Source: an uncultured Bacteroidales bacterium
GTDB taxonomy: Bacteria > Bacteroidota > Bacteroidia > Bacteroidales > FEN-979
Direction: 5' to 3'
DNA: 64,000 nt
Assembly (NCBI GenBank): GCA_903929315.1
Contig: CAIYUC010000211.1
Location: forward strand, 1 to 64,000
The number at the start of each line of letters is the position of its first letter. The first letter of the stretch is position 1. Made by a program: the position numbers and the translations under genes. The notes beneath the pieces are model-generated. The model was not told the DNA's origin. It did no database searches and saw nothing but the letters and a program-made list of their open reading frames with translations. Positions 10,583-15,832 of the stretch are shown piece after piece.

Positions 10583-10798
10583 GCGAAGACTTTTAGGAAA
10601 TAATTTTCCGATTTTAACAGAACATTTTACATATCCTGTCTTATTCAGGATTTCGTCTGTAATATTAGAAAACTTAACATGGCAAAACCTAACAAATGAG
10701 TGAACGGTATATTCTGTTGAATGAATGGAGCTTATTGGGTGTTAATCGGAGTCAGCAGTCCTCAATCTGTAGTCGGAATGTTTAATAAAAGTATAAAA

Positions 10799-10817
10799 GC
10801 AACTAAAAATTAGTTGC
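10799..10817. promoter_or_regulatory. Perfect palindrome GCAACTAA-AAA-TTAGTTGC overlapping the -33 region; candidate HicB operator
   Basis: 8-bp perfect arms, 3-nt spacer; contains the TTG of the putative -33 element. Confidence 0.6.
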
Positions 10818-10843
10818 AAATACAACAAAACTTATTATATTTG
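10814..10843 (+). promoter_or_regulatory. Bacteroidetes-type promoter (TTG / 19 nt / TATATTTG)
   Basis: TTG at 10814-10816, TAnnTTTG at 10836-10843, 19-nt spacing. Confidence 0.6.
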
Positions 10844-10847
10844 CAAA
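10839..10847. repeat. Target site duplication (left copy) ATTTGCAAA
   Basis: Identical ATTTGCAAA at 12206-12214 immediately outside the IS ends (10 bp if the following C is included). Confidence 0.8.
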
Positions 10848-12205
10848 CACATCCGTCCAAAATAAATTTTTATAAAAAAAAGTAGGGATTGGAGATACCC
10901 CTAAAAGGGGTAATTTTACAATAACGACAAAAACCAATCCCTATGGTAAAATTATCACTTTTTTCACAAATGACAAGTTTAATCCCCAGAGAATTGTTTA
11001 GCAATATTGTAAAAAAATACGATACCGATAAATACAGCAAAGGTGTTGATAGCTGGACGCATTTCGTCAGTATGCTATTCTGCCATTTGGGGCATGCAAA
11101 TTCAGTCAGAGACATTTCAAATGGATTAAGAAGTATCACAGGCAACATTAGTCATCTGGGATGCAGTCATGCTCCTGCCAAATCCACGGTGTCATATGTA
11201 AACGAGCATCGCAATTATCAGGTATTTCAAGAGTTTTATTATGTGCTTGCAGATTATCTGCGTAAACAGACCTCGTTCCCAAAACCCGCTCTAAAACGGA
11301 TCAAACGTAAAATTTTCTTACTGGATGCAAGTGTGATCTCATTATCACTTTCGCTTTATGATTGGGCTAAATTTCGTACCCGTAAAGGGGCAGTTAAACT
11401 TCACCTACTGCTCGATTATGAAGGATGCCTGCCCGCTTTTGCTGATCTTACCCATGGGAATGTCCATGAAATACAGGTAGCACATAAGATGAGATTACCC
11501 TCCGATAGTATCATTGTGTTTGACATGGGCTATTATGATTTTTCTTGGTGGTATAATTTGGACAGCATGAACAACTGGTTTGTAACCCGTGCAAAAGACA
11601 ATATGGATTATGAAATAGTTGAAGACTTTGATTTGACGGATGAAAAGGATAAAAATGTGTTGCAGGACTGTAATATCCGACTCAAAGGCAATAAAGCTCG
11701 GACAGAATACCCTAAAATGTTACGAATGGTAAGGTATTGGGATGAAGAGAACCAAAATGAGCTGGTATTCATCACCAATAACTTTTCTTGGACAGCAACG
11801 ACTGTTGCCATGATATATAAAGAGCGATGGAACATTGAAGCGTTTTTTAAAATGATCAAACAGAACCTGAAAATCAAATCATTTGTGGGAACCTCTGAAA
11901 ATGCGGTTCAAATACAAATATGGACGGCTTTAATCACCATCTTGCTATTGGCATACCTGAAGACAAAGGCAAAATACAAATGGCACATGTCGAACCTTAT
12001 CACTTTTATCCGACTAAATTTATTTGTAAAAATCGACCTGTGGGCTTGGATTGATGAGCCATTTATCCGTCCAAGTACCCATAAATCGGAACAACTTATG
12101 CTTTTTGAGAGGGAGGGTTAATTTTAAAAAGGAACAAAATAGAATTCTATATTATTGATTCTTAGACGATATTAACTATATTTAAATTTATTTTGGACAG
12201 CTGTG
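10848..12205 (+). mobile_element. IS4-family insertion sequence, apparently complete (~1358 bp)
   Basis: Terminal inverted repeats CACATCCGTCCAAAATAAATTT (left) vs CACAGCTGTCCAAAATAAATTT (right, reverse complement), 20/22 identical; transposase ORF inside; flanking 9-10 bp direct repeat. Confidence 0.9.
10943..12121 (+). CDS. IS4-family transposase
   Basis: 392 aa; DDE-type (LLDASV..., IVFDMGYYDFSWW) and Y-(2)-R-(3)-E-(6)-K signature YKERWNIEAFFKMIK. Confidence 0.92.
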   Translation: MVKLSLFSQMTSLIPRELFSNIVKKYDTDKYSKGVDSWTHFVSMLFCHLGHANSVRDISNGLRSITGNISHLGCSHAPAKSTVSYVNEHRNYQVFQEFYYVLADYLRKQTSFPKPALKRIKRKIFLLDASVISLSLSLYDWAKFRTRKGAVKLHLLLDYEGCLPAFADLTHGNVHEIQVAHKMRLPSDSIIVFDMGYYDFSWWYNLDSMNNWFVTRAKDNMDYEIVEDFDLTDEKDKNVLQDCNIRLKGNKARTEYPKMLRMVRYWDEENQNELVFITNNFSWTATTVAMIYKERWNIEAFFKMIKQNLKIKSFVGTSENAVQIQIWTALITILLLAYLKTKAKYKWHMSNLITFIRLNLFVKIDLWAWIDEPFIRPSTHKSEQLMLFEREG

Positions 12206-12214
12206 ATTTGCAAA
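12206..12214. repeat. Target site duplication (right copy) ATTTGCAAA
   Basis: Matches 10839-10847. Confidence 0.8.
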
Positions 12215-12223
12215 CAAAAATTC

Positions 12224-12484
12224 ATGAGCAGACAGGAAAAACTAAGAGAAAAACTCCTTAGATTGCCCGGGAACTTTACTTATAATGAAATGGTTACATT
12301 ATTAAGAGGTTTTGGATATATTGAAGAAGAAAGAAGAAGGTCTTCCGGGTCAGCCATTATGCTTTACCATAAGGAATTAAATGACAAAATAATGTTTCAC
12401 AAACCTCATCCGGAAAAAGAATTAAAAAAGATGTACATACTTAAAATGATAATTGAAAAACTAAAAAATAATAAAATGCTTTAA
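12224..12484 (+). CDS. hicA: HicA-family type II toxin
   Basis: ORF track start (GTG 12203) lies inside the IS end; the in-frame ATG at 12224 gives MSRQEKLREKLLRLPGNFTYNEMVTLLRGFGY...GSAIMLYHKELNDKIMFHKPHPEKELKKMYI, HicA-like; followed by a HicB-like gene. Confidence 0.75.
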   Translation: MSRQEKLREKLLRLPGNFTYNEMVTLLRGFGYIEEERRRSSGSAIMLYHKELNDKIMFHKPHPEKELKKMYILKMIIEKLKNNKML

Positions 12485-12545
12485 TTCAGGAAGATTTCTT
12501 TGCACTTGAAAATTGAAAAACATAAAACAATCAAAACTTTAATCC

Positions 12546-12884
12546 ATGAATATACTCACCTATAAAGATTATATCGGATCTGTCAGTTTTTCCTCTGAAG
12601 ATGAAGTTTTCTACGGGAAAATAGAGCATATAAATGATTTGATTACATTTGAGTCGGATAAATCTCATGATGTAAAAAAAGCATTTGAAGAGGCCGTGGA
12701 TGATTATATCACATTCTGCCAAGAAAAAGGTGTTAAACCTGATAAACCATTTAAAGGGAGTTTTAATGTCAGGGTGAAACCCTCAGTCCACAAGCTTGCC
12801 TATCAGAAAGCAATTCAGCAAGGGATGTCATTGAATAAATTTATTGAAACCACGCTGGAGAAGGAACTGAGAACTGCCGACTAA
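12546..12884 (+). CDS. hicB: HicB-family antitoxin
   Basis: 112 aa; YKDYIGSVSFSSEDEVFYGKIEHINDLITFE... plus C-terminal ribbon-helix-helix-like FNVRVKPSVHKLAYQKAIQQGMSLNKFIETTL. Confidence 0.88.
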   Translation: MNILTYKDYIGSVSFSSEDEVFYGKIEHINDLITFESDKSHDVKKAFEEAVDDYITFCQEKGVKPDKPFKGSFNVRVKPSVHKLAYQKAIQQGMSLNKFIETTLEKELRTAD

Positions 12885-15832
12885 GTACTGACCGGCACCA
12901 CCAACACCACCCTCGTCCCTGGATTCGGGCTGCCGGGAGAGTTTTCACAGAATTTGATACAGGTCGGAACATTGAATTTTTTTCCAAGAAGATCCAACCG
13001 CTTACGGGTCATCTCCATGCCAAGGTGTAAATGCTTTTCTCTTGTTATTGAGTATTCCGCCGATCGCTTCATCCCGATGCCATTATCCTCGATAATGACT
13101 ATGACAGATTTTTCATCCTGCATGCGGAATTTGATGTTGATCTGGCCTTTGTTTTCCAGTGCAGCAATTCCATGCCAGATTGCATTCTCTACAAAAGGCT
13201 GAATGATCATGGAAGGGATCTGGACTTCATCCGCCTCCACATCCTGATCCACCTCAATATTATAATCAAATTTATTTTCCATTCTCAGCTTCTCGAGATC
13301 AAGATAATTCTTTAACCTGTCGATCTCTTCCTCGAGATTGATGCTGGCGGCATTGATGGCATTGAGGTTCTGCCTGATCAGCCGGGCAAACTGTGATAGG
13401 TACAACCCGGCTTCACCAGACTTTTGTTGCAGGAGATAATTCTGTATGGAACCCAGGGAGTTGAAAATAAAATGCGGGTTCATCATCGATTGCAGAGCTT
13501 TCTGCTCCAATGTGATCAACTGGTGGTCTATTTCCCTGCGTTTGATAAGGATGTTTTTTCTCCGGATTATTGCAAGGAAAACAATCGCCAGGAATATCAG
13601 CAAAAGAACTGTAAGAAAAAGAGGATGCTCCCAGAAATGAGCTTTGATAATAATTTTAAATTCAATGGGCTTGCTCCATTCTGTATTCGGTTTGCTTGTC
13701 CTTAATTTAAAAATATATTTCCCTCTCGGAAGATTTTGATAAACAACAATCTTTCCTGTCCCATTTGACCAGTCATGATCGGCTCCTTCAAGCTTGTAGG
13801 AGAAAAGTACCGGTGTGGAGGAGTAGTTAATGCTGCTGAAAATAAACTTGATCCTGTTGTTTCCGGTTAATGTGATATTTTGTTGTGACAGGTCTGCTTC
13901 TATGTCGTTGATCAGGATGGATTGAATATAGGGTATGGGCGTATGGGTTGTGATATTGCTGATCAGTGCTTCCGGGATGATCGTCAGCCCGTCATCTGAA
14001 GCAATGTAAAGCGAATCCTCGTTGACAATTATATCATGGATATTCCGGAAATTGATATCCACCAATTGCAGCTCTACCGGCTTATTTTCAAAGAGGTGCA
14101 ATGGGTTGTCGCATTTATAAATATTTCTAAAGGTTGACAGATATAATGTAGGGTCCTCGTAAACAGCTTTTCTCACCTGAAGGTCAATAGGTGAACCAAA
14201 AGCTGCGGTGAGGTTAATAAAATTGTGCTGGTTATAAAGATAAATACTATCATCTTCGATATTATATAATTCGGTGGAGTCGTTCAAAATAAGATGATCC
14301 GTGATTATTTTATTGTCGAAGCGGGATAATTCTTTACAGGGCAGAATTTTTTCATTTCGGTACAGGTAGTTTTTCTTTGCATTGATGACAATGTCATTAT
14401 AGATATTATAAAAAGTATTATTAATACGTTCGTCTAAATCTATTTCTTTCATATCCCTGAATAGTGTTTCTGTGCTCAAAAGAAACAATCTTGAGACAAT
14501 GAAGGAGTTAATCTTTTCACATGTACTATTTACTGTTATTTTATTAAGGTTAGTTCCTGGGTTGAATGAATATTGGTATAATATTCGTTTCACTGCAAAT
14601 TCCGTTCTGATACCTTCGAAAGCAAAAAATTTTAATCCTCTTTCCCCGACAATTAAATTTTTATTATTCAACTGGCAGATCAGGTTAAATTGAGAGTTTT
14701 TATTCCGGAAATTCAAAGTATAGAAATCATTATTTTTTAAGAGGTATACTGTTTTTCCATTCGTAAGCCAAATACCCTCTCCGGGCTTAGAATCCAAAGC
14801 TGTTATACCTGTATTTTGAAACAAATCATTCTCATAATGCTTATGAGAGTTCAGGTAAGGGTTGATCTTATATACCCCATCTTTCATCGAACTTATCCAT
14901 ATATTGTTCTCGTTGTCCTGGATTATGGACTGGCCCTCGATTAAATCAAAATGACGTACAATTTGGTTATTCCGGAGACAAAAAACACCCCGATCAAATG
15001 TAACAATCCATAAAAACCCGCCGGAATCTTCCAGAATGGACTTTATCCCCATATATGCATTCGGCATTTTAAATGGCATTGAAACAGCCTCAATCTGAAA
15101 TTTATCGTTAATTTTGAATACTCCATTTTCGTAAGCGGAAATATAAAAAGATTTATTTTGGCCTGGAAAGACCCTGTAAATCCCGATTGAATCAAAGATT
15201 TTTGCCGGCTTTTGAATTAAACTATTCAGTTTGAACATCCCGCAACTTGTCCATACTATGAATTCACCCTTAGAATTCTTACCCAGATATCTTAACCCCA
15301 AATCTCCATTGTATTTACAATTTGTTTGATCTTTGACAATGTTTTTGTCTATTTCGTACTTTTTAACATTGTTTTGTGGGTCTATAGCAAATATTTCAAA
15401 CCACCAGTTATAGAAATAGATCATTTTATTCTTATCCTGGTAAAAATCGATAAAGAAATTTTTATTTTTTATTGAATCCAGAAATGGAGCATTAATTTCA
15501 TTAAAGATTTTGTTCTGATAGAAAAAATTAAGTCTGCTGTTTAAATTAAAGAACCAGATACGTCCAAATGAATCTTCTTTGATGCGGATCACCTCATTAC
15601 TATTTAAACCATCGTTCTTACAGAAATTTGTAAATATTGTACCATCATATCGTATAACACCTGCATCCGTTGCAAACCAGATAAATTTTTTGCTGTCCTG
15701 GTAAATATAGTAAACAGTATTTGTTGGCAGGCCATCATAAGTGGTATAATGCTGGATATAGGGGTTCTGTGCTGACAAGAAAGATTCAGCAAACGATAGA
15801 AAAAAGAAGAAAAGAATTAACAACTTTCTCAC
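12881..15832 (-). CDS. LytS/YehU-type sensor histidine kinase with periplasmic beta-propeller (Reg_prop) and Y_Y_Y domain
   Basis: 983 aa; IQHYTTYDGLPTNTVYYIYQDSKKFIWFATDAGVIRYDG propeller blades; single TM; LEQKALQSMMNPHFIFNSLGSIQNYL (His_kinase family) and HATPase C-terminus. Confidence 0.9.
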   Translation of the reverse strand: MRKLLILFFFFLSFAESFLSAQNPYIQHYTTYDGLPTNTVYYIYQDSKKFIWFATDAGVIRYDGTIFTNFCKNDGLNSNEVIRIKEDSFGRIWFFNLNSRLNFFYQNKIFNEINAPFLDSIKNKNFFIDFYQDKNKMIYFYNWWFEIFAIDPQNNVKKYEIDKNIVKDQTNCKYNGDLGLRYLGKNSKGEFIVWTSCGMFKLNSLIQKPAKIFDSIGIYRVFPGQNKSFYISAYENGVFKINDKFQIEAVSMPFKMPNAYMGIKSILEDSGGFLWIVTFDRGVFCLRNNQIVRHFDLIEGQSIIQDNENNIWISSMKDGVYKINPYLNSHKHYENDLFQNTGITALDSKPGEGIWLTNGKTVYLLKNNDFYTLNFRNKNSQFNLICQLNNKNLIVGERGLKFFAFEGIRTEFAVKRILYQYSFNPGTNLNKITVNSTCEKINSFIVSRLFLLSTETLFRDMKEIDLDERINNTFYNIYNDIVINAKKNYLYRNEKILPCKELSRFDNKIITDHLILNDSTELYNIEDDSIYLYNQHNFINLTAAFGSPIDLQVRKAVYEDPTLYLSTFRNIYKCDNPLHLFENKPVELQLVDINFRNIHDIIVNEDSLYIASDDGLTIIPEALISNITTHTPIPYIQSILINDIEADLSQQNITLTGNNRIKFIFSSINYSSTPVLFSYKLEGADHDWSNGTGKIVVYQNLPRGKYIFKLRTSKPNTEWSKPIEFKIIIKAHFWEHPLFLTVLLLIFLAIVFLAIIRRKNILIKRREIDHQLITLEQKALQSMMNPHFIFNSLGSIQNYLLQQKSGEAGLYLSQFARLIRQNLNAINAASINLEEEIDRLKNYLDLEKLRMENKFDYNIEVDQDVEADEVQIPSMIIQPFVENAIWHGIAALENKGQINIKFRMQDEKSVIVIIEDNGIGMKRSAEYSITREKHLHLGMEMTRKRLDLLGKKFNVPTCIKFCENSPGSPNPGTRVVLVVPVST

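Follow-up and report, generated by a model that had tools for sequence, protein, structure and literature searches.

An IS4-family insertion between a hicAB operon and its promoter, with a conserved stem in the transposase leader

Results

Organization of the locus

The window, by which we mean the whole 64,000-nucleotide stretch analyzed here, comes from an uncultured Bacteroidales bacterium and lies on contig C211 of a 4.3-Mb, 244-contig metagenome-type draft genome. Within it, an IS4-family insertion sequence (IS) stands between a promoter with its probable operator and a hicAB toxin–antitoxin operon. The features are as follows.

10799-10817, no strand: palindrome GCAACT-N7-AGTTGC to the left of the IS, conserved upstream of related hicAB, the probable operator for HicB
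10814-10843, plus strand: native hicAB promoter, TTGC at 10814-10817 and -7 box TATATTTG at 10836-10843 (pattern scan, conservation)
10839-10847, no strand: left copy of the target site duplication, ATTTGCAAA, 9 bp, a direct repeat flanking the IS
10848-12205, plus strand: IS4-family insertion sequence, 1358 bp, terminal inverted repeats 20/22, ends matching L055 and L075
10884-10942, plus strand: leader stem (predicted fold, covariation, relatives)
10888-10918, plus strand: probable native IS promoter, ATTG at 10888-10891, N19, TAATTTTA at 10911-10918 (pattern scan, conservation)
10943-12121, plus strand: IS4 transposase, intact, 392 aa (ORF, NCBIfam and Pfam profiles)
12184-12205, minus strand: right terminal inverted repeat (comparison of IS ends)
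12206-12214, no strand: right copy of the target site duplication, ATTTGCAAA, restoring TTTG only, without TA, -33 box or operator
12224-12484, plus strand: hicA toxin gene, intact (PF07927, 33.2 bits, cut-off 27)
12546-12884, plus strand: hicB antitoxin gene with HicB (DNA-binding) domain, intact (PF05534, 68.6 bits, cut-off 21)

A first-pass annotation of this sequence had described terminal inverted repeats and an intact transposase with the YREK signature, and both descriptions are borne out. The left end, CACATCCGTCCAAAATAAATTT (10848-10869), is identical at 20 of 22 bases to CACAGCTGTCCAAAATAAATTT, the reverse complement of 12184-12205. The transposase scores 257.8 bits against NCBIfam transpos_IS4_1 (cut-off 115), contains the Pfam domains DDE_Tnp_1 and DUF4372, and carries the signature Y-x2-R-x3-E-x6-K as YKERWNIEAFFKMIK. 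Together with a duplication of the expected size (∼9–12 bp), the inverted repeats and the YREK transposase place the element in the IS4 family. This is its only full copy in the 4.3-Mb genome. An IMG/VR search with the transposase gave no match, PADLOC reported nothing, and Rfam nothing relevant.

The insertion and its empty site

The length of the target duplication had been left at 9–10 bp. Nine bases are found on both flanks and in six further IS copies that are 88–45% identical, whereas the optional tenth base, and with it a 10-bp duplication, was rejected. At the left junction that base, C, already belongs to the IS as its first letter, and at the right its presence is due to chance, since 9 bp is the length in all other copies read. 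As the first-pass annotation expected of other copies, matching ends and 9-bp duplications are present: The copy L055, from a Bacteroidales metagenome-assembled genome and 88% identical, has matching ends and the duplication ATTTGGTAT, and duplications were read from the junctions in L075 (ATGGATGAA), L056 (ACACAACAT), and the Persicobacter copies L065–L067 (TGTGCATTG, ATTGTAGAA, and AGGGAAAGT). We rejected promoter targeting by the IS, since the seven target duplications have in common only a frequent leading A. Because the six others are not promoter boxes, insertion into the hicAB promoter looks like a chance choice of site.

The closest hicAB loci come from five genomes of the same family. 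Joined with one target copy, the window flanks read TTGC-N18-TATATTTGCAAACAAAAATTCATGAGC, which matches uninterrupted hicAB loci, and align across the junction with L032, L031, L033, and L037. The uninterrupted order is GCAACT-N7-AGTTGC, TTGC, TATATTTG, 13–16 bases, and the hicA ATG, and it is poorest kept in L033 and L037. Removal of the IS had been proposed to put a promoter directly ahead of hicA, and relatives had been expected to show the empty site; indeed, they carry operator, promoter, and hicA in a continuous, IS-free line. The proposed separation of promoter and operator from hicAB is likewise confirmed, since both sit left of the IS and now direct into it. The insertion had also been placed within or just after the -7 box, with the duplication re-creating a motif at the right junction. 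The box at 10836-10843 is complete on the left, and so was not destroyed, because the duplication, which includes its ATTTG, restores it; the right junction has TTTG only. The literature on IS insertion at hicAB yielded nothing relevant.

Promoter and probable operator of hicAB

The promoter assignments follow the Bacteroidota consensus, with a -7 box centered at -7 (PMC7366714), on which all transcription starts predicted here rest. In a plus-strand scan of 10780-12260, the hicAB promoter is the sole perfect TAnnTTTG with a -33 box, and its boxes are conserved in L031 and L032. Transcription is predicted to start at ∼10846-10847, at the IS edge.

The palindrome was sought as G[CT]AACT-N5..8-AGTT[AG]C, allowing up to one mismatch, with 200 shuffled sets as the control. 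It is present in 24 of 26 related hicA upstream regions across the order (17 exact), whereas the shuffled sets average 0.075 such regions and never exceed 1. TAnnTTTG occurs in 21 of the 26 (mean in shuffles, 3.1). In the window clade, the palindrome lies in the -33 region; in many other loci, it abuts or overlaps the -7 box. Across the 4.3-Mb genome, the exact pattern occurs only twice, at 10799-10817 and at G000:C185:11369-11387 (L139; GTAACTATGTCCAAGTTAC). Since the palindrome is common upstream of related hicAB yet has only two genomic sites, it very likely serves as the HicB operator.

hicA and hicB

HicA and HicB domains score above cut-off in adjacent genes on the same strand, which identifies the pair as hicAB. 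Compared with L031, Ka and Ks are 0.12 and 1.7 for hicA and 0.08 and 1.1 for hicB. The two genes had been under strong purifying selection, although their Ka/Ks of ∼0.07 was largely set over the period preceding the insertion. Three of the five nearest hicAB loci have an open hicB but a damaged hicA: L032 has an internal deletion, L033 a near-complete deletion, and L037 a frameshift. In these loci, the toxin has been lost repeatedly and the antitoxin retained. Weak hicA expression would therefore probably be tolerated.

Window HicA carries the motifs SGSA and HKPHP. Across the related group L031–L108, the former is SGS[R/A], with SGSA in the window clade, and HKPHP is almost invariant. No sequence match was found between HicA and solved structures. 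The hicA–hicB spacer (12485-12545) exceeds that of L031, the nearest relative, by ∼48 bp and is not conserved; a promoter for hicB alone within the spacer was rejected. Convergent with hicAB, a minus-strand ORF of 983 aa (12881-15832) looks like a sensor kinase that has propeller repeats at its N terminus.

A conserved stem at the transposase start codon

The transposase leader is predicted to fold into a stem (z = -2.77) with a 5' arm at 10884-10892 (AGGGATTGG), an inner hairpin at 10897-10911, and a 3' arm at 10934-10942 (CCAATCCCT) that abuts the start codon. When close relatives are aligned by sequence, 4 of 9 stem pairs have changed on both sides. The covariation score is 0.328 compared with 0.186 in shuffled alignments; none of 500 scored as high, a count that is not a probability because the rows are related. 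Shifting the partner by one column lowers stem pairing from 92% to 51–54%, and four of the seven unpaired alignment cells belong to the broken copy L060.

The same arrangement extends to more divergent elements. In 13 of 14 (100%–38% identity), the 12 bases preceding the start codon pair with an arm that lies well upstream, a pairing matched in each case by 0–16 of 200 shuffles. Ten of these 13 have protein identities of ≤51% and unrelated arm sequences. Arms among the 13 include CGGTCTTT/AAAGACCG in L056, GAAAAGGGT/ACCCTTTTC in L116, and CAGAGAG/CTCTCTG in L113. What is kept is the complementarity and the proximity to the start codon (0–4 bases). The leader of L076 (47% identity) does not fold the stem. 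Overall, compensatory changes maintain the leader stem, and 13 of 14 relatives have built it anew out of unrelated sequences. Among 20 more distant relatives (31–40% identity), only L125 and L126 have a clear stem. A general property of IS4 leaders was therefore rejected, as 18 of the 20 are without it.

The native IS promoter appears to lie inside this structure, with its -33 box within the 5' arm, the promoter in the loop, and the predicted start at ∼10922, past the 5' arm. Its TA.TTT..AC is conserved among close relatives, and TAnnTTTG stands at the corresponding place in L112–L115, L118, and L126. On the consensus, 10 of 14 elements, the window IS among them, have a probable -7 box (TAnnTTTG or TAnnTTTA) placed between the two arms. 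Predicted pairing of the start region is 0.54–0.82 in read-in RNA; in native RNA, it is 0.00–0.03 in 9 of 10 and 0.39 in L126. The window IS thus combines the two marks of read-in protection, a conserved stem at the start codon and, from the consensus, a native start 3' of the 5' arm. Between the transposase stop and hicA, the plus strand has no terminator-like site, and the pattern scan found no convincing promoter.

Discussion

All regulatory consequences of the insertion discussed below are ones that we infer. Our preferred explanation, which we consider probable, is that the IS hit the start region of hicAB, that the hicAB promoter now gives a poorly translated IS RNA, and that hicAB receives only weak read-through. 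Transcripts from the hicAB promoter would start at the IS edge and carry both stem arms. In such read-in transcripts, the start codon would be hidden and transposase poorly translated, as in the read-in protection of IS10 and IS50. Transcripts from the IS promoter would start inside the loop, without the 5' arm, and would be translated. A poorly translated 1.2-kb transposase gene could also expose the read-in transcript to Rho-dependent polarity. With poor translation and possible polarity, hicAB would therefore receive little from its own promoter and would be expressed at a low level, at the far end of read-through transcripts, some of them from the IS promoter. HicB would still repress the share of hicAB transcript that comes from the old promoter, while the share from the IS promoter would escape HicB control. 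Such weak read-through expression is favored by the predicted structured leader and by the absence of terminator-like sites on the plus strand downstream of the transposase gene.

Three other readings bear on this explanation. It is possible, if somewhat unlikely, that hicAB is effectively silent and heading to decay. The losses of hicA in L032, L033, and L037 indicate that the clade tolerates absence of the toxin; however, hicA and hicB are intact in the window, their low Ka/Ks relative to L031 covers mostly pre-insertion time, and no terminator-like site lies between them and the IS. We think it unlikely that the right end of the IS bears an outward promoter, maybe using the duplicated TTTG, that makes hicAB constitutive and free of HicB autoregulation. 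Outward promoters borne by IS are well known in other elements, and the pattern scan offers a right-end candidate, ATTG-N19-TATATTTA, at 12154-12184. However, 1.5 kb of plus strand contains ten promoter-like matches at up to one mismatch per box, so that chance alone would be expected to place one near the right end, and no matching box pair is visible by eye at the right end of L055. Finally, the leader stem could act not as an RNA switch but as a DNA feature, such as a site for the transposase or a host factor, a reading that is conceivable because the 5' arm of the stem overlaps the probable IS -33 box but quite improbable given arms that lie 41 bases apart in the window IS and that, among relatives, are unrelated in sequence yet retain complementarity and proximity to the start codon.

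The preferred explanation, an IS whose leader resists outside transcription, has close parallels. In IS10 and IS50, a leader stem reportedly hides transposase initiation in outside transcripts only, as described by Davis, Simons and Kleckner in 1985 and by Krebs and Reznikoff in 1986. The window IS resembles IS10 (Tn10) and IS50 (Tn5) in its IS4-family transposase, 9-bp duplications, and leader-stem design. It differs in belonging to a DUF4372 plus DDE_Tnp_1 subgroup, in its Bacteroidota promoter boxes, and in its unrelated ends, and its leader function is predicted. As an event, the insertion is commonplace but unusually well documented, and the IS leader adds a new case of a protective device already known. 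Our findings suggest that IS10/IS50-like protection from outside promoters also exists in an IS4 subgroup of Bacteroidota, with other promoters and ends. We see the chances as about even for the full proposal, namely that the Bacteroidota DUF4372-type IS4 subgroup has its own read-in-proof leader and that here the hicAB promoter yields untranslated IS RNA while hicAB has come under IS control. ISPpu9 also has a structured transposase 5' untranslated region that limits translation, but there the native mRNA itself carries the structure, which an antisense RNA opens (PMC8450116). The native transcript of the window IS, by contrast, should lack the 5' arm.

The locus offers a clear before-and-after case of an IS uncoupling a toxin–antitoxin operon from its operator. 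Like the HicB-autorepressed HicAB3 of Yersinia pestis (PMC11594946), it has a probable inverted-repeat operator at the hicA promoter and the toxin gene first; it differs in the IS between promoter/operator and hicA, and in the HicA motifs of its group, SGS[R/A] and HKPHP. Two results have a more general reach: the sequence GYAACT-N6/7-AGTTRC as a probable HicB operator at hicAB loci of Bacteroidales, and the probable read-in-proof leader of the IS4 subgroup.

Partial copies of the IS were also seen. Three solo left ends (L003:1517-1608, L004:1501-1594, and L005:1501-1590; G000:C152:84486, C112:2885, and C152:82853) consist of the first 92–97 bp of the IS, are 76–90% identical to it, and stop at the 3' arm of the stem; they lack a transposase and a right end, and no target duplication is visible around them. 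Two of them flank one LamG/PKD-like gene in direct orientation. L002:1501-1727 (G000:C231:22032-22258) is a decayed left 230 bp of the IS, 81% identical.
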